From positions 24,838,214 through 24,902,213 of the forward strand of contig CM049320.1 in the NCBI GenBank assembly GCA_026874595.1: DNA of 64,000 bases, written 5' to 3'. The notes below the pieces were generated by a model. That model had not been told where the DNA came from. It saw only the letters and a program-made list of their open reading frames with translations, and did no database searches. This DNA comes from Sipunculus nudus (taxonomy: Eukaryota; Annelida; Sipuncula; Golfingiida; Sipunculidae). Each line of letters opens with the position of its first letter. Positions within the stretch are counted from its first letter, which is position 1. This document shows positions 14,601 through 63,100 of this stretch, one piece after another. The position numbers and the translations under genes are program-made.

Positions 14601-15605
14601 CAAATTGAACGCTTGCAGACTACCATACACTTTAGATCCTTCAACAAATAGCCTTATCATCATTCTACTACTGCTTATTACTGCTGTCATTGCATTCATA
14701 TTTGCTCAAATATATCACAATTTTCAACCCCTCCTAAATAAATAAAAAATAAACCACTTTATTTGACTCTATTAATCCATCAGTCAGGTAATTTCATTTA
14801 TCATTTACTCACATATTACATTACATTCCTTTATAATAGCCTAACATGTACATGATATTCATAAGCTTTATCGACTCGATATAGTATCACAGTGGAGAAA
14901 CATTTATAGTCCAATCACGATCAGCTGAGCGCCGTGACCCATGGGTCCCTTGTTCATTGGTTTCCTGTCTAGGTTGATCCCTCTTACAGGAATGGCATTT
15001 CTTGACTGCCAAGACCATAAGTTTGACATCTCACGCATTGTGATTCTGCCAACTTGGCATCTCTGCCTCTAAGACTCTGACTCAGATTAGGACTCGGCTA
15101 ATGAGGACCTTACTACATCACTGCTAGAGATGATCAAGTGTCACAAGGCTGAATGTTCACAGACATAAAAGCTGCAAGAAATAATGTTAAAAGTACAAAT
15201 CCATGAAATATTGCGGATCATAAACTGATATAGATAATTACTTTAGGCAAAACTATAAATAATTTAAGCATGTCAAGTTGACTAGGTTTACTGTAAGCAC
15301 AATATAAAATCTCAGCACTGGCAATGCTTGATACAGTCAGAATGTTAATGTGAACAACTGTAATTCTATATTATCAGTGTTTTATATATATAATACACCA
15401 GCCTCAACCAGGGTTGTTATTTTTTCCAGGAAAAACTAGTTTCTCCCGGACAGTGGGAAAAACCCGGGATTAATTGGGAATAACTGGGGAAAACTGGTTA
15501 GTACCGGGAATTACTGGGGAAAATGTCTGATCAAAATTTTTAAGAGAGTATAATGATGTATAGTTAATTAATTCTGTTTAATGTTGCATGTTGAAATTAT
15601 ATGTG

Positions 15606-15659
<54 letters not shown>

Positions 15660-18600: not shown

Positions 18601-21600
18601 ATACATTCACTATGCATGTGCCAGAAATGATGTCAGTATTGCATTTAAGTAATAGGCCCAAACATAATGCACTTGTTAAAAAATCAAGAAATAAATTTAC
18701 TCATCTAAGATGAGAATTGCTGAAGCTGGAGACTTTTTTCAGGAATATAACTTTATTTAATCAAGATTCAATTGTTTACCCAAAATTAGATCTGATTTTT
18801 GCAAATTTTCCAAGTTATTAGCTTAATAAAAAAATCAATACCTTAAATTTTGTCCAACTTTGGCAATGGCACGTTTTTTTCCCTGTAAGCCCTGTTGATT
18901 TAATTTTCACAGCATATATACATAAGGATTTAATTTTTTTAAATTTGAAATTTCAAAGAAATTGATCGGAAAGAATAGCTTTTATTCAAGTTTTCATACA
19001 CCATGTCAAGTGTTGTTTACATCTAGCCCACCTAGTAGTACAGCCTTCACTTGCATTATGTAACCCACCCCAGGCAGCTTGACATGGCTCAGCTTGGCCA
19101 CTACTAGCAGGCTTCCCCTCTGCCCTGCTCCCCTCCCCCCCAGATGGTGCATTAACTAGATGAATGTTATAATTTTCTGTATTTCATTTTATTCTTGGCT
19201 ATGCAATGACACATTTTAGATTTTGTATTTACCACCAGGGTTAACTTACAATGATTAAAGTGCACATTTAATTGTGTCCAAAAACTTCACCAGGTGTGGA
19301 ATTGACTATTAATTCCAGTAATAAATTATAGCTTAGATTGTAATTAGCATAATGATATTGTTTGTCCCTCATTCAACCAACAGTGTGTATATTTGAATAC
19401 TTTATTTGAAAAGATGTTTTTATTTACCATATTTACTGAATCTTTTATTTTATTTCAGTGAATAAGATTAAGCATGTACTGAAAACTCCAATGTGCAAAA
19501 CTTGTTAATAGTGATTCAAGGAATAATCTTGTAGATGCCATGTTGTGGCATTATTTTCTTTTAAATTCAGTTTAAACATTTGTGATTTAAAAATAATAAA
19601 AATATATGTGTATGCATAATATGACCCAATATGAGCTACACTCTGGATATATAATGATTGCAACTTAGAATTCTAATATTTTAACTTGTATTTTCAGTTT
19701 TTTTAATACAAATTTATAAAACTTGTAAATAAAAAAATATTAATAAGATAAAAACTATTTTAATGGAAAAAGTGGATATGCTTAAATAATAGGCTTTTAT
19801 ATAAACTTAAATGCATAATTCCCTTGTAAGTGAAATAAAGGTATTAGTCCATTCTGTCCACTGGCCTGTCCATCTGTAAATTTTTTATATGCATCACAGT
19901 ATCTCAAAAACTTTTACTGTTTTCCTTCATGACAGTCTTGTCAGAGTATTAGTTTGCAATCATATATTTAGAACTTTACTATAACCAAGTAGGAGGGCCT
20001 CTTTCCTCTAAGCTTCTCATATGCTTATATAAATGAAAAACATTAAAATAGAATATTTTGCATTTGCAAAAATTTCAAACTTAAGCTGAGCGCCATGACC
20101 CATGGGTCCCTTGTTAATCTCAGGTTTCAGAAATTAGGTAAATTATGGTAAGTTTCTCCTTGTAGAGACTACAGTCGGAGTTTATCCTAGTAGAGACCAC
20201 GATCAGAGTTTGTCCCAGTAGAGACTACGATTGGAGTTTGTCCTAGTAGAATCGCCGATTCTACTTGTAGAAAGTCTAATTATGATGTGGTCTCTGGTTG
20301 ATCAGAGTTTGTCCTAGTAGAGGCTATGATTGGAGTTTGTCCTAGTAGAATCGCTGATCCTACTAGTAGAAAGTCTGATCGGAATTTCTCCTAGTAGAAA
20401 GTCTGATCAGACTTTGTCCTAGTAGAATCGACGATTCTACTGGATCGGAGTTTGTTCTGTGACATATATACATACAAACAAGCTTTTTTTTAAGGAAAAC
20501 AATATAAATTTTCATATCTTGGTTTTGTGATTTGAGTATGTTTGTTTAAATATATATATGTGTGTGTGTGTGTGAGAGAGAGAGATGATATTTCCTTTTA
20601 ATTCAGTCAGATATCTGCTGGTCTCTCCTTTTATAAGATTATTAGAGGTTTTTCCCAGTTTTTCCCCAATTCCCACTTTGAGAGGTTTTTCAAAGCCGGG
20701 AAAAACTTACAACCCTGGCCTCAACAGTGATGTAAAATTATGCTTCCCTGTATAATTTGCACCAAGGTTTTTCATTTCAATTTTATGAATTAATAAGGAA
20801 GATTATTTTTGGTGAAATACACTCTTGACAGTTTCCAGGCTTGATAATTTACCTACATTTTTTATTTCATATTTGTACATATTGTTACTATATATGATTT
20901 TAAATGATTTTCTTTGAATAACAGTGATACTGTGACCCTATAATGCAATAAAGTATGTTATTTCTCATATTTTTTTCAGATTTTTCACATTACTTGGAGT
21001 GTACCTTATTGGAGGGTTTATATACATGAGATTTGTGGTCCATGCACGGGGCATGAACCAGATACCAAACTGGAGTTTCTGGCAAGATTTTGGCAACTTA
21101 CAAGCTGTGAGTGAATGACTCTTTATTCAAACCTATTTGTGATAGGAGACTGCCTTACAGGGTTCAGCATTGTAGAAGGTCTTGTCGAGTTCATAACAGG
21201 TTAAAATATGACATGACAGGATGGCCTGTAACAATTAATAGGGGCCTTGAATCATCATGATACAAACTATTGCTGTAAATACAGTTGCCATTTGTATTTG
21301 ATTGATGATACCTTTATTTTCGTTTGAACCCAGTCTTACAGAAAACTACCTAACAGAGTACTTTTTATTATAGTGCAGCACTATTGTTATTCAAAGCCTG
21401 CAGTCTTAATATACAGCTGCTGATGAATAATTAAAACTCAAGAACACGTGAATATACAAACTATTTGTATATAATTTATTCCATCACTATGGTAACTCGG
21501 CATTTCCATCCCTTGCACAACTCTGCTGTCATTCACACAGCCTGTGGCAGTTTTCTTCTGTATTAGGTCAGTAATTCAGCAAAAATGTAGGGGGAGTGAA

Positions 21601-22398
21601 ACATATACTGAATTATAATATATAAATTATAATATATAATATATAAATATTCATACAAAATGGATGTTGTTGAAAGGTAGATCTGAAGGCATTGTAAAAA
21701 AATGATCAAAATGTTTGCATTCTAATCCAGAATAATTTTACTTTTTTTTTCATCTTTGGAAGGCAAGGCACTCTGACATCTCCACAGACTCTCCTATTTC
21801 AGAGGGGCAAAGTGCTATTAGATTCAAAGTTTAAATGTCATGTCAGTATTGATTTTAAAATATCCTGTATTTAATATATTTGTGATATCTGGTCATATAC
21901 CACTAAGCCATGTAAAAACAAACTATGTTTACATAGTATCATTTGAATTCCATGTATACATAAATCAAGAAAATATATGTATACATTTGAACTATTTTAT
22001 TACTGATTATTCATTTAGGAAATTAAAACTGTGTTGCTGAACTTTGTTTTTGCTGAACTTTTCTTCCTTAAACTTGTACTGCAGCCATTTAACGTTAGAT
22101 AAATGATCATTTCAGACAGGACTTTATTCTTAATTTTGTGTACATGCTGTTAATTATAATAACATTACTAGTGTCTTTATTGTGATTCCTTCCCAACAGG
22201 TTGACGTTTTAGTTATGTTATTTCTTGCATTTTCCTTTATTTCATTTTCACTTTCCACAGGATGGCTGTAATTTCCTGTGTCGGTGTACTGGTGGCAGTC
22301 CCTATAACCAACCAGGACAGAGAACATACAAGGGCGTCGGTGATGATCAGCTAGGTCTGGAAGATGAGGGACCTGATGATCACTTACTGCCAATGTAA
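2494..22398 (+). CDS. M6PR: Cation-dependent mannose-6-phosphate receptor, six coding exons
   Basis: Type I membrane receptor that binds mannose-6-phosphate on lysosomal hydrolases in the trans-Golgi and delivers them to endosomes. Exons at 2494-2639, 3841-4013, 5342-5451, 10898-11037, 20980-21106 and 22261-22398 join in frame to 277 codons, the length I recall for the vertebrate protein. Residues 1-21 look like a signal peptide. The lumenal P-type lectin domain follows, with VIQQNK (ligand-binding Gln), [12 protein letters not shown] and SDCYYLF. One membrane span lies at about 183-206. The tail has SFWQDFGNL (Phe-Trp endosomal-sorting motif), a CNFLCRC cysteine cluster where the vertebrate tail is palmitoylated, and the terminal acidic dileucine DDHLLPM used by GGA adaptors. 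All introns are GT-AG. Introns 3 (5.4 kb) and 4 (9.9 kb) are swollen by transposons. An in-frame ATG at 2434 would spoil the signal peptide, so 2494 is preferred. Confidence 0.95.
3841..4013 (+). CDS. M6PR: M6PR coding exon 2 (lectin domain, first half)
   Basis: Acceptor TTAACTTCAG|A; donor GGCA|GTTAGT at 4014. Encodes residues 49-106, including [10 protein letters not shown], the ligand-binding VIQQNK segment and [10 protein letters not shown], which line up with the vertebrate VQINK and VGRINETHIF segments. Confidence 0.92.
5342..5451 (+). CDS. M6PR: M6PR coding exon 3 (lectin domain core)
   Basis: Acceptor TCTTTTCAG|CGG; donor CAG|GTGAGA at 5452, phase 0. Encodes residues 107-143. [17 protein letters not shown] matches the vertebrate NWIMLIYKGGDEYDNHC stretch, and [10 protein letters not shown] follows. 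Confidence 0.93.
5721..9974 (+). mobile_element. Hairpin-ended Helentron-like non-autonomous element, copy 1
   Basis: Lies in M6PR intron 3. The 5' end is an imperfect 29-base palindrome starting AGCTCAGCTGACTATAAGTC, followed by a GTCCGTCC-type simple repeat. The 3' end has TCAGCTGAGCGCCGTG and then a decayed form of the terminal palindrome found in other copies as GACCCATGGGTC, then CTTGTT. No coding capacity is seen. It is interrupted by a hAT-like element at 5974-7546. Without that it is about 2.7 kb. Terminal hairpins, subterminal inverted repeats and insertion at TT/AA fit Helentron-derived HINE elements, but the class is inferred. Confidence 0.6.
5974..7546. mobile_element. hAT-like non-autonomous element inserted in copy 1
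   Basis: Begins CAGGGTTGG and ends CCAACCCTG, with 8-bp flanks ATTCTCAC (5966-5973) and ATTTTCAC (7547-7554) that differ at one base. Other copies of the host repeat read straight through this point (for example near 12050). Both ends carry several GCCTAAAACCTG-type words, resembling hAT subterminal transposase sites. No transposase frame is recognised inside. The 8-bp duplication and CAGGG terminus support the hAT superfamily. Confidence 0.75.
10898..11037 (+). CDS. M6PR: M6PR coding exon 4 (lectin end and start of membrane span)
   Basis: Acceptor AATTCCAG|GGC; donor ATCAT|GTGAGT at 11038. Encodes residues 144-189. The [16 protein letters not shown] segment carries the Glu and Tyr that sit ten residues apart in the ligand pocket of the family, plus an N-K-T glycosylation sequon. 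The last residues, IGSVIVI, open the transmembrane helix. Confidence 0.93.
11803..14954 (+). mobile_element. Hairpin-ended Helentron-like element, copy 2
   Basis: Lies in M6PR intron 4. It is the most complete copy of this family here, about 3.15 kb and without a large insertion. It starts with the AGCTCAGCTGACTATAAGTC palindrome and ends TCAGCTGAGCGCC, the palindrome GACCCATGGGTC and CTTGTT. Segments 12533-14954 and 8018-9974 of copy 1 are near-identical over long stretches. Short open frames in both copies (for example 8613-8795 and 13609-13791, minus strand) are identical by shared descent of the repeat and are not genes. Confidence 0.7.
16880..17560 (+). repeat. Tandem repeat of ~230-265 bases, about three units
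   Basis: The phrase CAGTTTGTGCTTATATGTGC (with variants) recurs near 16980, 17208 and 17474, each followed by a similar GCTTGTGCTTTTATTTGTA stretch. It is the core of the foldback-like element. Confidence 0.8.
17626..20115 (+). mobile_element. Hairpin-ended Helentron-like element, copy 3
   Basis: Starts with AGCTCAGCTGACTATAAGTC at 17629 and ends AGCTGAGCGCCATG, the palindrome GACCCATGGGTC and CTTGTT at 20115. It directly abuts the right arm of the foldback-like element, which begins AATCTCAGG. It shares the two-module interior of copies 1 and 2 but is somewhat more diverged. Confidence 0.7.
20980..21106 (+). CDS. M6PR: M6PR coding exon 5 (membrane span and proximal tail)
   Basis: Acceptor TTTTTTCAG|A; donor CAAGCT|GTGAGT at 21107, phase 0. 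Encodes residues 190-232: the rest of the membrane helix ([15 protein letters not shown]) and the tail segment [11 protein letters not shown] with the Phe-Trp sorting motif. Confidence 0.94.
22261..22398 (+). CDS. M6PR: M6PR coding exon 6 (cytosolic tail and stop)
   Basis: Acceptor CTTTCCACAG|GAT; stop TAA at 22396. Encodes residues 233-277: DGCNFLCRC, then [10 protein letters not shown] and the C-terminal acidic-dileucine DDHLLPM, essentially the vertebrate tail end. Confidence 0.95.
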
Positions 22399-46015: not shown

Positions 46016-47032
46016 ATGATATTTAGCAGATCCACTGTGGCTTTTGTTGCTTTCGTATTTGTCATCTCAACATATCTTTTCCTGGTACATAAGGAAGTTT
46101 TTAGTGATCCCTCACAAAGCATGACGAAAATTGTGCTTTCAGTTGGACAAGCAAAAGAAGAAAGGAAACAATTAGTGTTGAAATGCCAGGAAAACAACAC
46201 AGAATGCACAAGGTTTTCCCAGATGATGAAAGCCTGGCCCCCTGATAAGCCGAGAGCTGTGATCTATGTTCTAACCAGAGTGGGTCGACAGAAACGCCTA
46301 ATAAACTTACTCCATACGGTTGATCAATACTTTACCAGGCAGTTCCCCTATCCAGTGATTATATTTCACTCACAAATGTTACGCAGTTCAATTCCTATTA
46401 TTAGAAATTCAACAAATTCTTCATTATTCTTTCAGGAAATTGAATTTGAACTTCCCGACTTTCTTTCCCCAAAAGAGCAATGGTTGAAAGAACACTGCAA
46501 ACGATCCCTCGGGTACAAGCATATGTGTCGTTTTCAATCCAAGTTAGTGACAGAGCAGCCGATCATTGAGCAGCTCGATTATATCTGGAGACTAGATGAT
46601 GACTCTAGCATTCGCAGCCCAGTTAAATATGATGTGTTTCGTTTCATGCGAGATAAAGAAATATATTATGGGTATATGTGCAAGTTTCCCAGCAACGCAG
46701 AATGTGTTTTTGGACTATGGAATGCAACGAGGAAATATATTAAAATGAATCATATCGAACCTAAGTTTTTCAACGAAATGACAGAAGGAATGAATTATTT
46801 CAATAATTTTGAAATCAGCAAAGTCAGCCTCAGGACGAGCCCAGAGTATAAAGATTACATCGATTACATCGACAGATTAGGGGGAATTTTCTATTATCGT
46901 TAGGGAGATGCTCCTATTAAGACCATCGGGGTATCCCTATTCGTCCCTGAAAACAAAACTCATAATTTTCTCAGCATTGGCTATGCTCATCGTGGATGTG
47001 TTAACAACCTGCCAAAGCATAAAAGCAACTAA
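46016..47032 (+). pseudogene. GT15 alpha-mannosyltransferase, copy 1, single nonsense change
   Basis: GT15 (Kre2/Mnt1/Ktr) enzymes are Golgi type II membrane proteins that transfer mannose from GDP-mannose. The frame runs 338 codons from 46016 to TAA at 47030, broken only by TAG at 46901-46903 (codon 296). Copies 2 and 4 have TGG there, the W of the family motif RWGDAP. A signal anchor lies at about residues 7-25. Family landmarks are YKHMCRFQS, LDYIWRLDDDS, EYDVFRFMR-like KYDVFRFMR, NNFEISKVSL and DYIDRLGGIF. Downstream of the stop the frame is still intact (GDAPIKTIGVSLFVP). The protein as read ends at 295 residues and lacks part of the active-site region. It is a young pseudogene, a null allele or, less likely, a readthrough gene. 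A possible leader-intron acceptor (ATTATTCCAG) lies at about 45975. Confidence 0.85.
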
Positions 47033-48257
47033 ACTTTCTTGAATTTACACAACTCTAATGTCGAATACATATTGCACGGTGAAATTCAGAGATCCCGTTT
47101 CCATTATGCAGGTTAGCTGAACTAGTTCACAACTGCATCGGGACTGTTTTTCTCAAAATGTAGGTCCAGTCTATACTAAAAGCTGCAGCTCTTGAACTAT
47201 TTAAGGCTAGGTATGGTAAATGTTGCACGGGAGACTAAACTACGATTTGTTCAATATAATAATATATATTTAAAAATGTTATGAAAATCTTCTTTGGTAA
47301 AATGAGGTGAAAAACGACATTTTGATTGTATGCTTGTTTGTACTTTAATCTGTCACCGGAGGTCATAGATGTCAAAATATGTTATAAGGGGAAAACATAC
47401 ATGACAATCAGACAGTGCATATATATTGTCATCTTAATGTAATATCCCGTGTCAAAAATATTCTACTGTCAAACAAGAGATGTACAGTCTTAGCTGTTTG
47501 TTCTGTGCATTACTTCTTTAATTTCCTAACAGTGAACAAATTAGGTTTAGGACGAGGCACTGATAAACGAAAGCTAACATATTTTAAGGAATGACATGAT
47601 TTTGATGTGACATAGTACAGTGACAATCCAAGAGGTTGAATGTTTTTTTAAGGGGTAATTACATGCTCATGCTCGGTTTCCAACTTTCCTCTTCCTGACC
47701 TTTTATTAATTGTATTATATATAAGTTATATACGAGAGAATACACATGATAATATCTGGAATAAACACACATATACACACATTTATATATGTGTCAGACT
47801 TTTCTGTGTATATTTTTGTGAATGCATCAGACCTTCGTCAGGTGGGCATGGGTTGAGAGGTGTTAAAATATGGCGGAATGTCAATGCGTAGAGTCCACAA
47901 TGCAAGAAACAGTGTATTTACGTTCTGATTGGATATTTAGTAAAATTCTAATCATAATGGCCTGTGTGAGCGTGGTACACAGCAGTCTGCATCGCTCCAC
48001 TAAGGAATTTCCGTGAAACCGACACCATCCACATTATGACGTCACGTCACGGGTCGCTATGTAAAAAAGGCGGACCACTGTGGTACAGCCCGCAATTCCC
48101 AATCGCAACGCCTATCCAAGTAGTCTTTCGAATGCCAAAATTGGTCCGATTAATCGGTCGAAGGTGTGCCGCGAGCCGGATACCAAACCCTACATCCTGT
48201 GTGAGGAATGGGGAGGTACGATTTTCCAGTGCTCTCTCCGGCCCGTGAGTTGACTAT

Positions 48258-48296
<39 letters not shown>

Positions 48297-48930
48297 ATTT
48301 TAGAGAGACTTTTCAGTTCCTGTGGATACTTAGTCGCCGAGTAGCTTTTCCCCTACCCCAAACCTACTCTTGGGTTCATAAATTTAAGAAATGGGACGAG
48401 AGTTTTAAGGTTTTATTTCAAATTCATGAATTTTCAATTTCGGTTGAAAGGCTTGGAATGACCAATTATGGTGTTAAGTATTTTATGTATGTCTAACATC
48501 AGCGCCCCAACAAGAAAATAAAATTCAAATACTTTATTATTCAATGTAGTTATGTTCTTCTTTAATTTTGATATTGGTGTGGTTTAGTCACACTTTATAC
48601 ATTAATTCTCAAAATATTCACCCGATCACGTCAGGGTTAAAATTACTGTTTCTTGGTGAATTAAGACATGATGAAGAGATTGAAATACATACTGAGAGCA
48701 CTGCTTTGTGTGATATTTTTCGTTTCGTTATGTGTAATATCAATATGGAGAATAGTTTGTTTTTCAACTATTATCTTTTTATGGAGTTTCATCCACTCCG
48801 CCACATTAGTAATGGAATGAGAAATTTCACTCTGAGAAGTAATATAATCTAAGTAGCAGGCCAGAAAAGGTGATACAAATATTCGGTATTTTCTATAAGA
48901 AAATGAAATATACATAGCCGTAAATTTATA
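47033..48930. other. Intergenic, no gene recognised
   Basis: AT-rich DNA between GT15 copy 1 and the LINE remnant. It has a TA/TG microsatellite at about 48256-48296 and an ACACATATACACAC-type stretch near 47768. A GC-richer block near 48030-48250 has an open frame with no recognisable domain. Confidence 0.5.
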
Positions 48931-49930
48931 TATGGTGGAGATGGATAAGAAAATTAAAGATATAGACAAAACAATTAATATATGGCGGATTAGGAGTCTG
49001 ACCCTAGAAGGACGAAACCAAATAGGCAAAACTTTTATTATCGGTAGATTTAAATATCAGCTTGCTAATCTACCATATTATATGAAACTAAAAGTCTGAG
49101 AAATTGCCACGTTGTCTTTATTTAAAGAAAAGGAAAAAAAGCGGGGGGGGGGGGGGGGGGCTGAAATTCGCCACATTTAGACATCTCGGGTAGTATGCAT
49201 TTAAAGATATTTGTATACCGGAAGATAGATTTTTGAAGAAATTATGTAAGAAATTAAAACGGATATCACATAATAGAGAAATACTTTTATTGGGTAATGT
49301 TGGTCAGGTGATGAGAGCTGCTTTCTTCAAAGAAAATGGATTGTGAATCAAATAATATGGATGAATCGAAATGTTAAGATTTATAACAAATGATTTGTTG
49401 GAAAGAATCCATAACAATTGGGACCATGATCACTAATCTTTTAATGATAATAACCGTGTTAAGCATTCTGAATATTGGAAAGAACGAGGCGTGAATCTGA
49501 GATTATTCTTTCTGTGGTATTCATAAATGCCATTAGTTCTATCAAAGAAATTAGAAATTGAAAATTAATATTCGAATAAACCCCATACTTTATGGTAAAC
49601 GCTTTGCTTTACATCAAACAACTTTAAAACAGGTGTATCAGAGTATCAAGAATGCAATGTACTTGCCATTTTGTAAACTGCTACAATTTATTAATTGCTC
49701 AACACAGTGGATTATAATTGGTCAAGGGTGTACCTGTTATCTAAAAGTATGTTTCAAGATGTTAAAACACAGGATTTTCAGCATAAAGTTCTGCAGAATA
49801 TTTATTTTTAATAATTACGGGTTTCAGAAAAGGAAATTAGTAACAAATAAAAAATCCAATTTTTGTATCACTAATCGAGAAAATACAGTGCATTTATTTT
49901 TGGAATGTGAATTGATAAAAGTATTTTGAT
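48930..49930 (+). mobile_element. Decayed LINE (non-LTR retrotransposon) 3' coding remnant
   Basis: At 48939-49099 the frame reads INIWRIRSLTLEGRNQIGKT followed by FIIGRFKYQLANLPYY, the post-reverse-transcriptase segment typical of LINE ORF2 proteins (W..R.LTLEGR..I.KT). At 49558-49929 a second frame ends NFCITNRENTVHLFLECE, which fits the C-terminal zinc-finger-like zf-RVT segment (C..C..H..C) with the first Cys lost. Stops and frameshifts lie between. An 18-G run at 49143-49160 interrupts it. It is non-functional; the clade cannot be told. Confidence 0.7.
49143..49160 (+). repeat. Homopolymer G tract
   Basis: 18 consecutive G inside the LINE remnant. Confidence 0.95.
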
Positions 49931-51012
49931 TAAACATAGAAATATGATCGGTTGAAAAGAAGATAATTTTTACTTTGATAAATCAGGAGTTGTTTTACGA
50001 GAGTGAATCGAAGAATTTTGGAAGAATTATACATTCATTATCGGTAAAAAGTATATTAATAGATACAGGTATAACAAAAGTGGTCTAACGATAACAGGAT
50101 TTGAACACTATTTAAAGTATTACATGTAGATTGAATAAATTATAGAAAAAAGACATTAAAAAACACAAGATTTAATTGAGAAGAGGGCAGTGTTAATATG
50201 TTTAATACATTGAGATATTATTTGATATTATTTGTAAGAGAAATGGTTTGATTTTGTTCTGCGTATTAATTTTTGAATAAAACTTGTAAAAAAACTAAGT
50301 AGTAGTTAAACATGTCACACTTTTGCTATACCTGAATTATATGTTGGACTTGCTATTCTATGATCATAGGAGTTTACAGCTTTCCGGGAAGAATACTTTT
50401 TCTTTACAATTTCAGATTTAACTAAACACTACCTTTGTGTGCAGAGTTATTTGATCTGAACACCAAGTGTCAGTCGCTGCCAAATGGCGTCGCTAGTTTC
50501 GTGAAATGTATCGCTAAATAATTGTTCGAGTTTTCAATCACACAAGAAATTGATATTGCGGATGTTCACTGCCTTCAAATGAGTTTATGAGGGTCATTTA
50601 AATGCAGTAAATGAGGTTTGCAGATTGATGTGAAATTATATCTGAGGGCAATGACCCCATTAATTTGTATTTGAGTTTAATATGCAATGCGTATATTTAC
50701 CCATTTCTCGAATCCCAGGCATATATATAGGAGAATTAGATCCCTAAAATGCATGTTATTGTTTGGAATGGAAAACAAACATATGTAATATTAGATTTTG
50801 TCAGACTAAATGTACCACGGGTAAATGCGAATATAGGCTACCTCCTTTTTAACTGGTATGGTTATGTTTCAGGAATACCATTATTATATCAATCTTTAAC
50901 ATTTCCGCCTACATCAAATTAAGTATTCTGTGTAAAATATAGTTTGATTTTCTCTTTTTAGAATACAGAGAAATTCTGCTCGAGACGGCCCCGACGCGTT
51001 ACAAACAGAACC
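49931..51012. other. Upstream flank of GT15 copy 2
   Basis: Mostly unassigned. Near 50455-50500 a GAACACCAAGTGTCAGTCGC stretch resembles the upstream regions of copies 1 and 3, so part of the duplicated promoter flank is retained. A TCTCTTTTTAG at about 50961 could be a leader-intron acceptor. Confidence 0.4.
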
Positions 51013-52024
51013 ATGGTGATTAGGCCATGCCACTCCGCTTTGATCGTCACTGCTTTTGTTTGTGTATCCACAATGTATGTTTTCCTAGTATATAATGCAG
51101 AAATTCTTGAATTCTCCCAAGGTCTTATGAAAATTGAGTTTTCACTCGGAATAAAAGAAAGAAAATTACGGTCACTATGCCAAGAGAAGAACGCAGACTG
51201 CATTAGGTTTTTCCACATGATGAAATCATGGCCTCCGGACAAACCGAAAGGTGCAATCTACCTCCTTACCAGAGCTGGCCGACCGTCTCGCCTTAAAATC
51301 TTACTCTGGGTACTTGAGCAGCATTTTACCAGCTGATGGGACTATCCAATTATAATATTTAACACAAAACTGCTGCGAAGCTCAATTCCTGGGATCAGAA
51401 ATTCAACTAATTCTTCATTATTCTTTCAGGAAGTTAATTTCAAAATCCCTGAATTTGTTCCTCCAGTATTTGAGTGGCCAAAATGGCCACACTGCAAAAA
51501 CCAATTGGATACAAACATATATATGTCGCTTTCATTCCAAGTTAGTTACAGAGCAGCCGGTGATTGGACAGCTCGATTATATCTGGAGACTTGATGACGA
51601 TTCCAGTGTTCGTTACCCTGTAGAATTTGATGTGTTTTGCTTCATGCGCGATAAAGATATATATTACGGATACATTTGTAAATATCCTGACATCTCAAAT
51701 TGTGTGTTTGGGTTATGGAATGCAACCAAGAAATACATCGAAATGAGACACATCAAACCACAGTTCTTCTACCAAATGCCGGATAGAATGACATGCGTTA
51801 ATAACTTTGAAATTAGTAAAGTCAGTCTTTGGACAAGCTCCGAGTACATAGATTTCATGGATTACCTTGACAGGTTAGGTGGCATATTCTACTATCGTTG
51901 GGGAGATGCTCCAATAAAGACGATTGCAGTTTCCCTCTTCGTCCCTGAAAACAAAACTCAAGTTTTTCGTCGCATAGGCTATTTTCACCGTGGGTATGTC
52001 AATAAGCCACCGCCAAAGCATTGA
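51013..52024 (+). pseudogene. GT15 alpha-mannosyltransferase, copy 2, stop plus frameshift
   Basis: The frame opens at 51013 with a signal anchor (ALIVTAFVCVSTMYVFLVY) and MMKSWPPDKPKGAIYLLTRA, then meets TGA at 51334-51336, where copy 4 has an Arg codon (CGC). Downstream DNA stays colinear in that frame until about 51510, where small indels around a CATATATATG stretch shift the frame by one. From 51455 the new frame carries ICRFHSKLVTEQ, LDYIWRLDDDS, NNFEISKVSL, DYLDRLGGIFYYRWGDAPIK and a stop after NKPPPKH. Two independent lesions make a functional product unlikely. It keeps the intact RWGDAP motif that copy 1 lost. Confidence 0.85.
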
Positions 52025-54480
52025 TGGACCTCAGATTAACAATATACTAATATTTATAATCACTGATTGGACTCCGTTTAAAAAAGTAGCACAATTTTAA
52101 TATAAATTAACTGAACTTGTCCCGACTGTAATAAAACCTTTTTCGGGATTGCCAAAGCAATAAATGAGATTAACAATTTGCTAACATTTATACACATTAA
52201 TTAAACTGCGTAAATACAGAAAAAATTACATATCAATTTGATGATTTCATCTAATTCTAACTTAAACATTTTGTTGACCTTTTAAGAGAAAGGGCTATTG
52301 TGAATTACGTTTGCATATCGCTAAATACAAGCATATGATCCTATCATGCCCTAAAACAAAATTGTCATATTTGTAACGCGTTTCGCTTGATCTCGTTTAC
52401 GCTCCATCACACCAAAACTAACTGAATTGGAAACTTTGAACACTTTGGATAAGTGCCCATTATGATTAGTTCTAAAGTAAACCATATTCATATGCCAACT
52501 TGCTTTTTTTTCAAAATTTATTTTATCCTCCTGTGGTTGGTATGAATAGATTCTAAGAGCTACTGTAAACTGTTTATTCACTAGAGTACAGTTTGAAACA
52601 TACTAATAAAAATCTTAAGCGGCGTTGCATGTACATAATTTGTGTGCACATTAAATGTCATCACAATGATTGCGGTCATTACCAGCAGCGTCTATAATTG
52701 ATGCATAGTAATGAACATGCTTTTCCCTTATGTAGAATAAAAACTGTATTAAAAATCAACTGCAAAATGACAGATAAAGCTTTGATACATGGGACTAGGC
52801 ATGTATTCTACCTCTATTTTACTGAAGGACAGCAGTTGTTCTATTATAGTCTGAGTGTATCTGCTTTTATTTTTACTTAAAATCAGCTAAGCCTAAGCGA
52901 CGGCCCTTTATACTTCTACTGGTTTTCTTGTCTGGTCGCCAGGGATATCCTGAGGAAATTGTCTTTAAAATCCTAAAGTACGTCACAGTGACCTATACTC
53001 TACACTTTATAATGTAACTCACAATTTTGAGCACTGTAAAAGTAAGGCTTCCCTAAGCGTGCAATGTTGTTAACTTGTTAATCATATGTTCTGCGTTAAA
53101 TCATAATATGGCAATAATGTGCCTCTTCTACTCTTTAATTCTATCAGCATTCAAAGTTTAAAAAAACAAACCGAGATTTTCTGCGTTGTGGGTCAATTGC
53201 AAGGACTGCATGTAGACATTATGTAATATCTGTTCTAAATATCCCAGTATCCCTAAATATCCCAATATTGACCGTATTACCGATAAATGCTTGTAAGCTG
53301 CACGTGACCTTACGTGTGATGACTTCTTTTCTACAAGCCAAAATGTTAATTTCCGTCCAACCCAGATAAACAGGAAAAATAATAATTTAGTTTCTTATCA
53401 TAGTAAACTATTCAATAATTGAAGGCACCCACATTACTGGTAATTAACACAATTTTGCCTAAACGGAGCTTTCATTTTCGTTTATCATGAATGTTTACGA
53501 CTTCAAGTTCTACTAATAATTTAAGCACTGCAGGGTGATGAGCAGAACAGGATTCTGTAGCTGGAATATGAGGAAAATTCAGATTGCGCCGAAAAATGGT
53601 GAATCAGTATAGTGAATCAAAATAACCTTTTCAACCACTACCTTTTGAAATAGGTTTTCATGTTAAGGGGACGAACAGTTCCTCGGAGTCAAATTGAAAA
53701 TAATTATTTTCAAAGTAGCAGCTTTGTGGAATTTCTCTTATTTGAGTATTTGGTTTCTGTGTTTGCTTATCACGTTATTGTCTGTAAAAAATATTGATCA
53801 CATGACTTATTAATAAACTATGGATTGCGCCGCCCATACTGATCTATTCCATTGATCCAAAAATAATTTTATTTCCTGAATATCATGCAGATTTACACTG
53901 TAGGTGCCACCACTTATGCTGTACTGCAGCTGTTTCTTTTTCCAGCTGTATATCATTTTTAATATATCATTATATCATATCCACTACCTTTCACAGTTTA
54001 ATCAAATGAAAGACCGTTAGTCTTTTGTTGAAAATGACAGACTTCAGCGGTCAGTATTGTGCTAAGCATGGCACAAATAGTAGCCATATGAAGCAGCTAC
54101 ACTTAACACACAGACAGGCTGTGATAAGCTCAAACAAATAACCCTTCATCGGGCTATATTTTGTGTGTAGCCTTTTAACATTGTGTCAGATTCAGTTGAC
54201 CTTTACGGTTGAGCACCAGATCAGACCGTGTGCAATAAACTCTCGCGGATATATTTCTCATTGTATTAACAATTCTTTGAAGAGGGATGGCGGTAAAACA
54301 AATTCATTAAACATATACAGTACTACGTTTTTTAAGACTGCATTTTATTTAAAATAAAAAAACTTTTTTTACAATATTTGAATGTTTACTAAACGTAAAT
54401 GTATTTATTTTATATACACATTGTCTTCATTTGCGCTTCACAATAAAAGCTTAAAAACACATTAAAACAATCAGGGCAAA
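52025..54480. other. Intergenic, no gene recognised
   Basis: AT-rich spacer between GT15 copies 2 and 3. It includes the piece at about 53990-54105 that is inverted relative to 44990-45105. No exon, RNA gene or intact element is supported. Confidence 0.5.
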
Positions 54481-54499
54481 ATGACCATATCACCTTTCT

Positions 54500-55451
54500 C
54501 CATCAGGCTACACCAGCTGAATGCCAAGTGTAAATCGTTGCCAATAGGTGTCACTGGCTCTCAAGATGGTATTGTTGTTACGCCAGGCTATAGATGCAGT
54601 AATGATATATAAATATTCTCTAACTTTCAGGTGAGTTTAAGAGTGTTGTTAAAATACGGCAAATGATGCGCTATTTCCTAATGATATTCAATTGGAATTA
54701 AATTAAACTATGCATTCATGCTGAAGTTAAACATGCCCCGTTAACTTTGTTTGACTCTGTGTTTTCGGGTACTTTCCATTCAATTAATTTAGAAAACATA
54801 AAGGTATACAGGAACGTTTAATTAGTTAATTGCATTTATACCAATAAATCATTCTTTTATTGGTCTGTATGCTAGCGATGATTCTTCAGGAAACACTGAC
54901 AGACCATCTGTTACACATTATCAGGGTATTCATGCCATACTCATCGCTCAATATAATGGCACAGTTTCTCCAGCAAAGTGAGGCATCTACATATTGATTT
55001 TTGCTTGCATGAGAACAGGTAGAGTGGATTCCCGGTCCTTCCTTATTCCTTCCATCATTGATTTTATAATGCTTTTTTTTTATGAATGCCTCTCTCGTGC
55101 TAATCATTCTGAGAGTCAAGGGCTTCCTGGAAAAGAAACTGTTCTACAGTATGTTTTATTCACTATTCTGTACTGAAAACAGGTTTATCTATCTATCTTA
55201 CCAGTCCCCTTTTCACTTTAATACAATTTTATTAAAACTAATAGAATTTCATAGACTTGTCTCTCCGTTTCTCCCCCACTTGAAATACATAAAACTTGAA
55301 ATAACCACGGAACACTTATGATTAACGTATATTCAAAGAGTTGTAATTTACTTTCTGGCTTTTTATTGTTCTAACACCTATAATATATTGATGCATTCTC
55401 TATCTTTTTGTTCCAGGAACTAGGCCCAAGTGTAATTCCCTCAGTTGAAAT
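54500..55451 (+). repeat. Duplicated upstream flank of GT15 copy 3
   Basis: Colinear with about 45190-46015 upstream of copy 1: the CAGGCTACAC and GTGAGTTTAAGAGTG segments, GGTAGAGTGGATTCCCGGTC, and GGAACTAGGCCCAAGTGTAA just before the start codon. Copies 1 and 3 therefore arose by segmental duplication that included the promoter. Confidence 0.8.
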
Positions 55452-55840
55452 ATGAAAATATTTAGCAGATCCACTGTGGTCTTTGCGCTTTCGTATGTAT
55501 CATCTTAACATATCTTTTCCTGACACAAAAGGAAGATTTAAGTGATCCCTCACAAAGTATGACGGAAATTGTGCTTTCTCTTGGACAAGAAAAAGAAGAA
55601 AGGAAAACAATGTGTTGAAATGCCACGAAAACAACACAGAAAGTATAAGGTTTTTCCAGATGATGAAATCCTGGCCACCTGATAAGCCAAGAGCTGTGAT
55701 CTATGTCCTAAACAGAGTGGATCGACAGAAACGCTTTCTAAACTTACTCCATACGGTTGATCAATATTTTGCCAGGCAGTTCCGCAATCCAGTAATTATA
55801 TTTCACTCACAAATGTTACGAAGTTCAATTCCTACGATTA
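55452..55840 (+). pseudogene. GT15 alpha-mannosyltransferase, copy 3, frameshifted and cut by an insertion
   Basis: Closest to copy 1 in sequence. The start region has small indels that break the frame near 55490 and 55600. The longest clean frame (from 55612) reads FQMMKSWPPDKPRAVIYVL and continues through LLHTVDQYFARQF to SSIPTI. It then runs into a minus-strand hairpin-ended element at about 55840, exactly where copy 1 continues RNSTNSSLFF. The catalytic half is absent and was not found beyond the insertion. Confidence 0.85.
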
Positions 55841-57758
55841 ACAAGGGACCCATGGGTCACGGCGCTCAGTTAAAATATTAGAATTGTTGCAAAAGTTGCA
55901 ATCATTATATATACAGAGTAAAAAGCATTTGGTCATATTATGCATACACATATATTTTATTATTTTTAAATCATAAATGTTTAAACTAATTTTAAAAGAA
56001 AATAATGCCACAACATGGCATCTACAAGAATATTCTCCACATTGGAGTTTTCAGGACATGCTTAATTTTATTCACCAAAATAAAATAAAAGTAAATTTGA
56101 TAAAATAAAACATCTTTTCAAATAAAGTATACACACTGTTGGTTGAATGAGGGACAAACAATATCATTGTGCTAATTACTATCCCAGTTTTAATTAATTA
56201 CTGGAATTAATAGTCAATTTCACACCTGGTGAAGTTTTTACTCTTCTGAAGTAAGGAATTACTTATCTCATGAACATCCACACTTTCACAGCAATACACC
56301 ACTTTGTGGACACAATTAAATGTACACTTTAATCATTGTAACCCTGGTGGTTCAATACAAAATCTAAAACGTAGCATGTCCAAGAATAAAATAAAATAAT
56401 AACATTCATCTAGTTTATGCACCAGCTGGACGGGGGATGAGTGCAGGGCAGAGGGGAAGCCTGCTAGTAGTGGCCAAGCTGGGCCAGGGTAAGCTGCCTG
56501 GGGTGGGTTACATAATGCAAGTGAAGGCTGTACTACTAGGTGGGCTAGATGTAAACAACACTTGACATGGTGTATGAAAACATGAAAAAAAGCTATTCAA
56601 TCCTATCAATTTCTTTTGAAAGTTCAGACTTTAAAAGATTAAATCCTTATGCATATATGCTGGGAAAATTAAATCAACAGTGCCAAAGTTGGACAAAATT
56701 TAAGGTATTGATTTTTTATTTATGCTAATAACTTGAAAAATTTGCAAAATTCAGATCTAATTTTGGGTAAACAATTGAATCTTGATTAAATAAAGTTATA
56801 TTCCTGAAAAAAGGTCTCTAGGTTCAGCAATTCTCATGTTAGGTGAGTAAATATATTTCCTGATTTTTTAAAAAATTGTATTATGTTTTGGCCCATAACT
56901 TCAAAATAATACCCAATACTGACCTAATTTTTGGTATGTTAATAGAAAATGTATAAAAGAATGTGAATACTAAATACCATCAAAAACAGATCAGTGGTTT
57001 TGATATTAGGCAGCCTTGAAGTGTAACAATGGCTTTTTTTCTTCCTTAATATCTCGAAGGAACAAAGTCCTAATGACCCAATTTTCGGTATGGTAGGAGA
57101 TTTTGGGGACATCTAAAATAATGTCAACAGCCTGGGGAGCATAGAGATGTGCACTGAATGACCTACAGTCATCAAAGTGGACTGCTTGACAATGTAAGGG
57201 AATACAACAACAAAAATTCAATAACTAGTCTAATTTTGCAGCTTTTATATTCAAATTTCAGATTTTAACAGATTAAATCCTTATGTATACATGGTGTGAA
57301 AATTAAATCCACAGTACTTACAGGAAAAAAACGTGCCATGGCCAAAGTTGGGCAAAATTTAAGGTACCAATTTTATATTTTTGCCAATATTTAAAAAAAA
57401 ATTAACAAATTTTGATCTAATTTTTGGTATGCAATTAAATTTTGATTAATTAAAGTTGTATTACTGGAAAAAAGTCCCTACCTTTAACACTTTTGGTCTT
57501 AAGTGACCAAATATCTTCCTGATTTTTTTACAAAGTCCATTATGTTTGGGCCCATAACTTTTTTAAATTATATAATACTGACTTAATATCTGGCACGTAC
57601 ATAGGAACTATATAGAGGAATATTTATGGTAAATATGAAGAAAACCGGATGAGTGGTTTTAATATAAGGCAGTCCTGAAGTGTGAAAATAGATTTCTAAT
57701 AAAAAATTGAGGTTTTTCCTTAATATCTCAAAGGAACGAAGTCCTATTGACCCAAATT
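55840..57758 (-). mobile_element. Hairpin-ended Helentron-like element, copy 7, 5'-truncated
   Basis: On the plus strand it opens AACAAGGGACCCATGGGTCA (the inverted 3' palindrome end) and runs through the interior seen in copies 1-3, reversed. It stops near CCTATTGACCCAAATTTTTG without the AGCTCAG hairpin, so the 5' end is lost. The insertion point lies after ACGATT in the GT15 frame, consistent with a TT/AA target. Confidence 0.75.
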
Positions 57759-57759
57759 T

Positions 57760-58188
57760 TTGCTTATATATAAAATTTATTATGTTATAACATAGATGTA
57801 TATCTCTCTATATAATATATAATCGGAAGATCATGGGTTCGATTCCCTTGGCAGTGAACCTACTTTTTTGGGTATTCAAATCCATCCCTATATACAATGA
57901 ACCAGCATGGCTATTTTTACTCTATATAATATATGCCGCACACCAAACAAGACCACAAGTTCTCCCTGCTGCATGCAAAGTCGCTGGTTCCTGTAAAAGT
58001 ATGCATATACACAGAGGGGTTATAGATCTGTCGTTAGGTGTATCAGCTTAGTGGGTAAATCGGAAGATCATGGGTTCGATTCGCATCGGCAGTGAACTGA
58101 CTTTTCTGTGTATTCTAGTTCGATCTCTGTATACACTGAACCAGCATCACTATTCAAACATCACTTTCTTTCTTTCTCTCTCTCTCTA

Positions 58189-58258
<70 letters not shown>

Positions 58259-58555
58259 TATATTTCTGTCACCATCAAATCTCCTGAGCCAATACATCCA
58301 TGATTGATATAATTGGAAGACATACTGATCATGCAACTTATGTGCTATTTTCTGCAGAAAATGCATACATTTTCAGGAAAACACATCATGCGAAAAAAAA
58401 AACACTGACTATAGCCTTGCAACTACAACCCTTTCTCATAGGCAGTCAGACCTGGGGTCGAACCCAAGTTGCCAACGGACAGCAAAAATGAAATTTTTAT
58501 GGTGACGAATGATTTGTGTAACAGTCTATTGTGTAACAAACCTAGAATGAATGCA

Positions 58556-58598
<43 letters not shown>

Positions 58599-59888
58599 TT
58601 TTACGCAGTGGAATCATATGTGTGTGTCTGTACGTTTTACGCAGTGGAATCAGATATGGACACTCAATGTACTTCTTTCCTGATATATTGTTAAAAAGGA
58701 TTAGTAGCAAAGATGGATAAATTATACTGGAATGCCGTAAAGAAATCTTATAAATACGACACTCGGTTAGCTGGGAATGTGTATTTTAAAGAACCTTCGT
58801 TGTATGCCCGTGGCATAAAAACGTAGCAGAGGGAGGAAAGACATGATGTGTGTTACATCATCATTATTATTCAAGATGTTGAAATAATGCAAATGCACGA
58901 GTAAAGTGACTGCATATACATTTGGTCACTGGAAGGTAGGTCACGTTTGTTCCCTCATTGCAGCCATTCTTTCTCCTTTGAAATTTCCTTCAATTTTAAT
59001 TTCCTAATGCTTTACTCACTTTTCTTTTTTTTATTTTCTCTGCCCTGGTCTTTCACACCACGTGGCCTTGTATAAGTACTTGGTCATGTGGTTAAAGAAA
59101 ATGACAGTTTCAACTGGAATTGTTCAAAATACCTCGGTCACGCATAGATAACGGTCACAGCGATAGACAGATTTACTTTTCTGTCTCAAATAACGACTGG
59201 CCCAGGTTTATGTAAAACTAATAAACAACTCTATCTTCAGAAAGATTGTCCGTTTGTCCCTATCAGTATGAGTCGAACATTTTCGTTTGTAGTTACAATG
59301 ATTGCTTTACAATCCTTTTTAAAAATCCTTACATCCTAATTTAATAATAAGTACATTATTTCTTGTTGAATATTTTTTTTTAAATTTCATACTGTAACTA
59401 CATGATATTAAAATAAGACCTTGGCATAGTTATTACATACACACGAAATTTTTTATATAATTTCATGGAAAGAACTTACCTAGTATTTATAAAACAGACT
59501 GCCCAAATGATAAGCAATTTGCTCAGCTCAGTATTTAAAGTTTATTTTACTTAAGCTTCCGCACTTACACCCGCCACGTCATCCCTGATTAATTTATTAA
59601 TCAATTAAAAGAAATTTGTAGATAATGAAATGTTGCATGTCAAGACACGAGCTAAGTTCCTCATCCGATGAGATTGAATAAAAAAATATTCTGTCTGCAG
59701 ATTATATATTCCAAGACAGCACCGAAAATTCAAGAATTTGTCGAAGATTATTGATTTTCTTTTCCCAGTTTCAAATTTCCATTCTCTGTCCGTCCACTCC
59801 AATCTGACTCCGGTCTAACACGTATTCATATGTTTTATATTTCATAATTCAAAGCACCTCTACTCAAGACGAGTGACTAAGTTAAGGA
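57760..59888. other. Spacer between GT15 copies 3 and 4
   Basis: Holds two SINE-like tRNA-derived fragments (separate entry), CT and AT microsatellites at about 58167-58260, and a TG tract at about 58565-58594 followed by a duplicated GTACGTTTTACGCAGTGGAA unit (58594 and 58630). No coding exon is recognised. Confidence 0.55.
57826..58155 (+). repeat. Two tRNA-derived SINE-like fragments in direct order
   Basis: AATCGGAAGATCATGGGTTC with the B box GGTTCGATTC occurs at 57831 and 58058. The second copy also has an A-box-like TATCAGCTTAGTGGG upstream at about 58040. Both are followed by GGCAGTGAAC and, about 50 bases on, ACTGAACCAGCAT or AATGAACCAGCAT. They look like two copies of one tRNA-derived SINE rather than functional tRNA genes. 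Confidence 0.6.
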
Positions 59889-60905
59889 ATGAAGATGAAC
59901 TTTCCAAAATCCATAATCGCTGTAGTAATAGTTACCTCGATAGGCATCATCTCTTCATATATTTTGTTTGCATATAACGATGAATTTTTTGAGCTCACAC
60001 ACGGCATAATGAAGATTGTATTTTCTCCGGAACAAAACGTGGATGGACAACAGCTGATGTCGAAATGTAATAGAAAGAACACAGAATGCATGAGGTTTTC
60101 CGAAATGATGAAATCCTGGCCTCCGGACAAACCAAAGGCTGCTATTTATGTTTTAACCAGGGTGGGAAGACAGAAGCGCCTTATAAACATGCTGGAGTCA
60201 GTTGATCAACATTTTATCAGCCGCTTCCACTATCCAGTGATAATATTTCACTCAATCATATTCCGGGGTTTAATTCCTAGTATAAGAAATGCTACAAATT
60301 TACCAATATTCTTTCAGGAAATTGAATTTAAATTACCGAACTTTCTTCCTCCAAAAGATCGTTGGCCCACACCGCACTGCATACACACTATAGGATACAG
60401 GCACATGTGTCGTTTTCAGTCAAGGTTAGTAACAGAACAGCCGATCATTGAGCAGCTCGATTATATATGGAGACTAGATGATGACTCTGATATCAGCAGC
60501 CGAATTGAATACGATGTATTTCGATTCATGCGAGATAAAGATATATATTACGGATACATGTGCATACGTCTTGACAACCCTGGGTGTGTGTATGGATTAT
60601 GGAAAGCAGCAAAGAAATACATTGAAATGAAACAAATCAAACCACATTTCTTCTACGAAATGAAGGAAAGAATGACGTACTTTAACAATTTTGAAATCAG
60701 TAAAGTCAGCCTTTGGAGGAGCCCCGAATACAAAGATTACATCGATTACATCGACAGACTCGGAGGAATATTCTACCATCGTTGGGGAGACGCTCCTATT
60801 AAGACGATTGGCGTAACTCTCTTCGTCCCTAAGAACAAGACATATCATTTTGGGGACATCGGCTATATTCATCACAGCTGTGTTAATAAACCGTCAAAGC
60901 AGTAA
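59889..60905 (+). CDS. GT15 alpha-1,2-mannosyltransferase-like protein, intact copy 4
   Basis: An intact intronless frame of 338 residues with TAA-type ending at 60903-60905. GT15 (Kre2/Mnt1/Ktr) proteins are Golgi type II membrane enzymes that transfer mannose from GDP-mannose, usually in alpha-1,2 linkage to glycans. Short N-tail, signal anchor at about 9-29, stem to about 78, then the catalytic domain. Family landmarks: AAIYVLTRVGRQ (84-95), YRHMCRFQS (170-178), LDYIWRLDDDS (190-200), EYDVFRFMRD (207-216), NNFEISKVSL (266-275), DYIDRLGGIF (286-295) and RWGDAPIKTIG (298-308). These mirror fungal GT15 motifs. Where fungal proteins have WR.EPD/G, this one has WRLDDDS. It is shorter than yeast Mnt1 mainly in the stem. 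Mannosyl transfer is inferred from family; donor, acceptor and linkage are not shown. Confidence 0.85.
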   Translation: MKMNFPKSIIAVVIVTSIGIISSYILFAYNDEFFELTHGIMKIVFSPEQNVDGQQLMSKCNRKNTECMRFSEMMKSWPPDKPKAAIYVLTRVGRQKRLINMLESVDQHFISRFHYPVIIFHSIIFRGLIPSIRNATNLPIFFQEIEFKLPNFLPPKDRWPTPHCIHTIGYRHMCRFQSRLVTEQPIIEQLDYIWRLDDDSDISSRIEYDVFRFMRDKDIYYGYMCIRLDNPGCVYGLWKAAKKYIEMKQIKPHFFYEMKERMTYFNNFEISKVSLWRSPEYKDYIDYIDRLGGIFYHRWGDAPIKTIGVTLFVPKNKTYHFGDIGYIHHSCVNKPSKQ

Positions 60906-62417
60906 GGAATTATCCATCTATTATAGACACACTTTTCACTGAAGGATTTCAACACATTATGACTCCATAAAAATACTTTCCAAAAGCCGATTCGCTGTCT
61001 GCAAATTATGTGAAATAGAGGCAACTTCAATAGTAATTACTGAACTTAATTTAATTCTGAAAGTATGTCTAACCTAGTGTTGCGTTCCTGTAATGCATTG
61101 TTACTTGACGTAGAGAAATTTTATAATGCCGAATGAGGGAGAAGACAAATGCTATGACATCTAATCTAGAAAGATTTTAAGTATATATAATAAGTTTCAC
61201 GCATATAATAACTTGTAAAATGGGCATAACTGAAAAACAAGGGAATGGTTACAGAATAGTATACATATATTATATAATTCGATAATGTAAATGATATTCC
61301 TAGGCTTTACAGTAGTGTGTATATGAGTATTTTTTTCAATGAACAAGATAAACCTGCATATAAGGAGTTCCGAGAAACATGAATAATTGATAAACTGTTT
61401 AACAGACACCCGGTGGTTTATACCAAGTAAACGTGTTCATACATATGTACTATATGTTTCAATTACTTTTCAACACAATATTTTACATCTATAGCCTGAG
61501 GGTTTCATCACAGAGGAATGAATAATATCTGAATGTCCAGATGTTCATGTTTTTTAAATACATTTGCACATGCTGGGATATCTTTTCTGGTAATCACTCC
61601 TTCATGCGTATGATTTGAACAAAATTATGTACCCATAATCCATTCCTGTTGTATTAAGGTAATAGTTTATTAATACTATTTGTAGGAAGAGACTTTCGTG
61701 TGCGCTACTGCCTTACTCGGAAGCCCTATATGTTTTCAGTCGTTCCTTCATGATATTCATTCAGGTTTCTATCTACTTGTCATTTTACACCTCAGGGAAT
61801 GACATTCACCATGGGCTTCCATAGCCTCTAGTTTTCCTGTTGCTTGCATAACGCATTTATTAGCATATATTAGCATATAAAAATAGCACTACGTAACATA
61901 ACCACCTGTGTTTGAGCTATTAATTACGTATAATTATTGTTATTTGATAACAAATGGGTCCCCTGTCCTTATCACAAGCACGTTTTCTACATCTAAATGT
62001 GTTTTTCCATTACCCGTATATTTACTGTGATTCCAATACTGTTATTGTTATTTTACAGTGGTAGGATGGCCTCTCCCAGTGTTCTTTTTGTAAACAGATA
62101 TATGTGTGTATATTAATATATTCCTATATGTGTGTATATTTATATATTCCTTATGTGTCACGGAGTCTATTTCACATGCATACTCCCAGGCCCTTAACCT
62201 AGTGTAGTGATCAATAAGGCTATAGCGTCTCGTAATGTAGGTGAAATGCACCCTGGTTACGAAGAAACAGGGTGTTTGGAGAATATACATTATTTCTTTC
62301 TCTTTCATATGTTGAACTTTCGCGGAGCAGGAGATCTAGCATCTATATTTCCATAGACCCCTAACTCGAAGACACATTCACTCAGCCGAAAGAGAAACTG
62401 ATCGTTTTGAAAACCGC
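60906..62417. other. Spacer between GT15 copy 4 and remnant 5
   Basis: AT-rich, with a TATATGTGTGTATATT-type stretch duplicated near 62100-62150. No coding exon or recognisable mobile element is seen. Confidence 0.5.
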
Positions 62418-63100
62418 TTTGTCGTTATGTGTCAACTCAATATATCATTTTCTGGCATATCATAAGGAAATTACTGATCACTCAAAGATATGACGAAAAT
62501 TGTACTTTCACTTGGATAAGAAAAAGAGGGCAGAAAACAATTCCTGTCAAATGCCAGATACAACACAATGCATCAGGTATTTCAATATGACGAAATACTG
62601 CCCTCCCCTCCCCCAAACAAAACAGTTCATTAGGTATTTCCAGATGATAAATTCCTGCCCCCCCCCCCCACACACACACAGACAAATGCCTGCAGAATGC
62701 ATTTGGTATTTCCAGATGATGCAATCCTGTCCCCCAAAACGTCACAGAATGCATCAGGTATTTCCAGATGATGTAATCCTGCCCCCCCCCCCCCGAAAAA
62801 TCATGAGGAATTTACTGATCACTCGAAGATATGACGAAATTGTACCTTCACTTGGATAAGAAAAAGAGGAAGGAAAACAATTTCTGTCAAATGCCAGAAA
62901 CTACATAATTTATTAGATATTTCGTGATGACGAAATATTGGCCCCAAAAACAACATAGAATGCATTAGGTATTTACAGAAGATGAAGTCCTGGCCCCAAA
63001 ACAAAACAGAATGCATTAGATATTTCAAGATGATGAAATCCTGGCCCCAAAACATGACATAATGCATTAGGTATTTCTAGATGATGAAACATCAGAGAAG
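62418..63100 (+). pseudogene. GT15 remnant 5 with coding-derived minisatellite
   Basis: Starts with a decayed anchor/stem region: TCATAAGGAAATTACTGATC and ATGACGAAAATTGTACTTTC match copy 1 around 46090-46140. A unit of about 51 bases follows, corresponding to the codons for NTECTRFSQMMKAWP: GAATGCATTAGGTATTTCC, AGATGATGAAATCCTGGCCC. It recurs near 62569, 62620, 62695, 62747, 62906, 62958, 63009 and 63060. The array falls into two blocks of four, each preceded by the stem segment (62478 and 62806), so a larger duplication followed the first. C-runs separate several units. No catalytic domain follows. Confidence 0.8.

Follow-up and report, generated by a model that had tools for sequence, protein, structure and literature searches.

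A large and probably native family of GT15 glycosyltransferases in the genome of the animal Sipunculus nudus

GT15 genes and remnants in the window

We analyzed a 64,000-nucleotide stretch of the Sipunculus nudus genome (assembly GCA_026874595.1, contig CM049320.1, here G000:C15:24838214-24902213; hereafter the window), part of a genome of 1.43 Gb in 153 contigs. On its plus strand lie five copies or remnants of GT15 glycosyltransferase genes—members of a family known mainly from yeast cell walls and fungal mannoproteins and proposed as important for antifungal design (PMC4546622)—and only one of the five is intact. A first-pass annotation, made from the letters alone, had placed five plus-strand copies or remnants here, and all were recovered, the fifth as a minisatellite remnant rather than a gene:

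46016-47017, plus strand: GT15 copy 1, full length, a pseudogene or null allele
51013-52024, plus strand: GT15 copy 2, a pseudogene
about 55453-55838, plus strand: GT15 copy 3, an N-terminal remnant of about 130 first codons with frameshifts, followed by repeat DNA
59889-60905, plus strand: GT15 copy 4, intact from ATG to TAA, 338 amino acids
62470-63110, plus strand: copy 5, a decayed remnant, minisatellite rather than gene

Copy 4 is encoded in a single open frame, in keeping with the earlier description of the coding sequences as intronless, and its product combines a hydrophobic N-terminal stretch with a GT-A catalytic domain. It scored 143.9 bits (E 9.8e-42) against the GT15 profile PF01793, whose curated cut-off is 25 bits, and its predicted fold resembles solved GT15 enzymes across the whole catalytic domain; the solved-structure relatives that we found were fungal only. 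The active-site tyrosine, the acidic metal ligand and the histidine ligand, as defined in PMC4546622, are all present. The GT15 assignment, which the first-pass annotation had made from short motifs, is supported by profile, predicted fold and catalytic residues alike.

The remaining copies are damaged in different ways. Copy 1 is open to position 46900 and is then interrupted by a single in-frame TAG (46901-46903), which occupies the position of the W of RWGDAPI in relatives; the part before the stop still scores 97.4 bits with PF01793. In copy 2 the frame is broken by a TGA at 51334-51336 and is shifted at a point between about 51495 and 51518, and no 3' part of copy 3 was found upstream of 59889. 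Copy 5 contains a minisatellite with a 51-bp unit at 62912-63089 and a 107-nt segment recurring 340 bp apart, and is similar to the stem-coding segment of GT15 genes. Its minisatellite seems to derive from that segment of a GT15 pseudogene.

Copy number, duplication and selection across the genome

A profile search of the genome returned at least 53 GT15 matches, all above the cut-off, on scaffolds C1, C6, C8, C14, C15 and C17, so that the tandem expansion noticed at first pass proves larger than described: nine more copies, intact or broken, lie on the minus strand to the left of the window, and five scaffolds besides C15 carry matches. Among the 53 matches are 31 full-length stop-free copies, four full-length copies with one stop (copy 1 included) and 18 shorter pieces. 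For residue-level comparison we used 31 host frames of at least 250 amino acids (hereafter host sequences)—29 of the 31 full-length stop-free copies, plus two cut by a stop, copy 1 being one of these. All 31 read in one open frame, having been selected as such.

On C15 the cluster extends to the left of a mannose-6-phosphate receptor (M6PR) gene and beyond the window, where nine minus-strand copies, five of them intact, form a three-gene block that occurs three times, at spacings of 18.6-21.8 kb, with 90-97% identity over segments of 2-10 kb. The window copies are inverted relatives, with 74-85% DNA identity.

In every one of the 31 host sequences, the strongest 19-residue hydropathy window (1.67-2.75) begins within residues 1-57, compared with values of 0.08-1.22 past residue 110—by hydropathy a single N-terminal signal anchor, of the kind that a Golgi type II glycosyltransferase would have. 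We further compared nonsynonymous and synonymous substitution rates (dN/dS, omega) in the 406 pairs drawn from 29 copies, pairs that share copies and are hence non-independent. Of these, 44 had dS between 0 and 1, and omega lay at 0.20-0.53 in 43 of the 44. These sequence measures fit intact copies that encode type II membrane enzymes and are kept by purifying selection.

Chromosomal setting

Two further features of the window bear on whether the array belongs to the animal:

3839-22395, plus strand: M6PR gene (PF02157), five exon matches, of which the first is weak and contains stops; inside the GT15 cluster
55868-57689, minus strand: repeat DNA after copy 3, in matched pieces 55868-56254 and 56736-57689

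The M6PR introns are of kilobase scale, and this gene together with the genome size points to an animal host. The second repeat piece matches 7547-8516 at 92%, and that segment in turn matches 12053-13034 (95%) and 17859-18809 (77%); all three sites fall between M6PR exon matches, bearing out the earlier remark that copy 3 is interrupted by a repeat shared with M6PR introns. Because this repeat also lies between the M6PR exon matches and the scaffold is 64 Mb long, we take the array to be part of an animal chromosome; the scaffold size excludes contamination, which the first-pass annotation had called unlikely.

Relatives in prokaryotes, viral contigs and fungi

Scanning GTDB genomes yielded ten prokaryotic GT15 loci. 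Viral contigs scanned with a single protein gave no relative, but an alignment-based scan gave 110, of which the best 80, at 77 loci, were kept. The identity of the 31 host sequences was 35-49% to the archaeal L042-L044 (36-49% to L042), 29-36% to Chlamydiae, 24-40% to viral sequences, 25-37% to Kre2p and 23-32% to two Ktr4 proteins. For each host sequence the leading archaeal sequence scored above any fungal or viral one, and the best viral sequence beat the best of three fungal ones, albeit from a far larger viral set.

At L042 (975-3927) and L043 (984-3930) an archaeal GT15 gene, one copy per genome, lies beside a conserved pair of GT2 and FkbM methyltransferase genes. The FkbM methyltransferase and GT2 neighbors are 71% and 62% identical, respectively, between two metagenome-assembled genomes (MAGs), and one archaeal copy adjoins an NFACT gene; given these neighbors, contamination by eukaryotic DNA does not account for the archaeal copies. 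The gene is rare, having been found in two of 34 genomes, of uncertain completeness, of the archaeal family concerned.

GT15 genes also occur on IMG/VR contigs (L052-L128), some of which (for example L054, L060, L067 and L076) carry two per locus. Of ten neighboring genes on viral contigs seven matched Pfam families, and of nine compared with PHROGs five matched; several of the neighbors are sugar-nucleotide or glycosyltransferase genes. Compared with 50,697 phage records and with PHROGs, the GT15 of L067 found no counterpart.

For tree building, 131 GT15 sequences were reduced to 81 by removing near-copies. A more careful tree of 53 sequences (24 host, three fungal, nine prokaryotic with one long bacterial sequence omitted, and 17 of 44 viral), its root assumed at two distant prokaryotic sequences, united the 24 host sequences (99/98), placed the fungi with Chlamydiae (96/80) and apart from the host, and joined the archaea to viral sequences (95/89). 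In approximately unbiased (AU) tests, none of five alternatives was rejected: p was 0.243 for host with fungi, 0.167 for host with archaea, 0.065 for host with viral sequences, and 0.16 both for host with archaea and viral sequences and for fungi with archaea and viral sequences. A common ancestor of host and fungi that leaves out prokaryotes and viruses is the alternative behind the first of these values; the careful tree, with three fungal sequences only, keeps host and fungi apart.

Active-site signature

The first place of the DXD motif is D in all 31 host sequences and the motif reads DDD in 29, so that none carries the modified, EPD-type DXD of fungi. The fungal Kre2/Mnt1 family (Kre2p, Ktr4p and CmsA/Ktr4; CAZy GT15), at 23-37% identity across three fungal and 31 host sequences, instead has EPD, EPN or EPK and differs from the host in most guanine-pocket residues. 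Ser234 is missing from 30 of the 31 host sequences and Arg142 is retained in 13, and Asp173 is not purely fungal, being D in 18 of 44 viral sequences as well. The host states D262, F204 and G234 are common to the archaeal and nearly all viral sequences, and the prokaryotic GT15s (from a Methanoperedens MAG, two other archaeal MAGs and Chlamydiae) share the DxD and further residue states with the host. In contrast to the host copies with their N-terminal anchor, two complete archaeal proteins begin at the domain. The IMG/VR proteins have the same family and DxD as the host, at 29-39% identity to the window protein. By residue pattern, then, the host enzymes are best placed in the DxD form of GT15 that archaea, Chlamydiae and viral contigs also carry, as opposed to the EPx form seen in the three fungal enzymes; from these three fungal sequences only, the pattern suggests that EPx is a later change within GT15.

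Published distribution

Published tables list one GT15 in the snail Achatina fulica (PMC10295696) and five each in the cryptomonads Goniomonas avonlea and Guillardia theta (PMC6260743), which takes the family beyond the fungi; these entries, in single or few copies, share the CAZy family name with the host genes. According to PMC3797821, the algae surveyed there lack GT15. In the open-licence literature that we searched we found no account of such an expansion in an animal, and mannosyl terms had zero occurrences in the available portions of PMC9993606, PMC11592408, PMC13342648 and PMC10764150.

Interpretation and alternative origins

We consider it probable that the window shows one portion of a large GT15 glycosyltransferase family that is native to the animal. 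The family, which has multiplied recently, grows through tandem and segmental duplication, while individual copies decay—by nonsense mutation, frameshift, truncation at a repeat or conversion to minisatellite—to leave a varied set of intact genes. Family membership, predicted fold, residues, copy number, duplication, decay and selection are observed here; the Golgi site, donor, acceptor and use of the enzymes are inferences. The product of an intact gene would be a type II membrane protein in which a short N-terminal anchor and a stem precede a GT-A domain in the lumen. If Ktr4p is taken as the model, Mn2+ may be held by the first D of DDD and the C-terminal histidine, and the donor diphosphate by the invariant tyrosine of GYRHMC, with a sugar, most likely alpha-mannose, added with retention to Golgi glycans. 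The presence of 31 full-length stop-free copies in one animal implies that animals have a GT15 branch of their own, whose active-site signature differs, and leads us to expect unusual glycans, probably bearing mannose, in the host. The kind of system is already known; what is new is the size of the family, its active-site signature and the open identity of its donor.

Several observations weigh against this interpretation. The guanine-contacting residues Asn172, Asp173 and Trp204 of Ktr4p and its diphosphate-binding Tyr229 are replaced in all 31 host sequences (by H or Y, by S, E, T or A, by F, and by C, respectively, the Tyr229 column sitting in a gappy stretch of the alignment), so a GDP-mannose donor is not assured. 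The glutamate of NFE is missing in one host sequence, six of 44 viral sequences and three of three other prokaryotic ones. As for selection, 264 of the 406 pairs are saturated at synonymous sites, and the youngest pair (dS 0.013) has an omega of 0.86. Finally, the notion of an animal family draws on the present genome and one published snail count.

The first-pass annotation had offered either an old transfer followed by tandem expansion or a poorly described animal lineage, and the latter is the better fit, given the GT15 entries for snail and cryptomonads in the published tables. Transfer from a fungus to the animal lineage with later expansion appears very improbable, although it would accommodate the single open frames of the extracted copies (picked as such), the fungal origin of the only solved relatives found and the AU result for a clade of host and fungi, which is not rejected. 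The fungal EPx, Asn172, Asp173, Trp204 and Tyr229 states are missing from every host sequence, and Ser234 from nearly all, whereas the host shares D262, F204 and G234 with archaeal and most viral sequences; Kre2p is less similar to the host than L042, archaeal bit scores are uniformly higher, and the careful tree groups the fungi with Chlamydiae. That an animal ancestor long ago received a DxD-type GT15 from an archaeon, a bacterium or a virus, and that the N-terminal anchor was gained later, seems unlikely but is the alternative that deserves most attention: the closest similarity is to archaeal sequences, residue states are shared with them, and the coding regions of the copies read are intron-free. 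The patchiness of the archaeal gene itself nevertheless leaves the direction of any transfer open, the AU tests neither show nor reject a grouping of host with archaea or with viral sequences, and five GT15s in each of two cryptomonads, as tabulated, suit an old eukaryotic family. A more specific scenario, in which an early animal acquired a prokaryotic or viral enzyme of the DxD type and amplified it into a glycan-diversifying repertoire whose donor is not GDP-mannose, perhaps to vary surface or mucus glycans in encounters with microbes, strikes us as distinctly doubtful.

It is also conceivable that the family is mostly decaying, with few working enzymes and the window array as a graveyard. 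The single intact gene among five in the window, the four full-length copies with one stop and the 18 shorter pieces all lean that way, but the 31 full-length stop-free copies and the low omega of nearly all pairs in the usable dS range make this, in our estimation, very improbable.

Other observations on the assembly

A search of the assembly for COX1 returned no mitochondrial gene, only one short fragment on C5 and otherwise small, apparently bacterial contigs. Oxidase genes of the COX1 family, in open standard-code frames, lie on contigs C60, C61, C62, C66, C72, C74, C75, C89 and C123; nine places on eight contigs score near-equally, and one gene on C123 (112 kb) reads like the cbb3 type. 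Companion bacteria, possibly different strains of a symbiont, seem to be included in the assembly. Outside the window, additional M6PR-family matches that look like exons lie at G000:C13:23746478-23746609 and 62687214-62687351.
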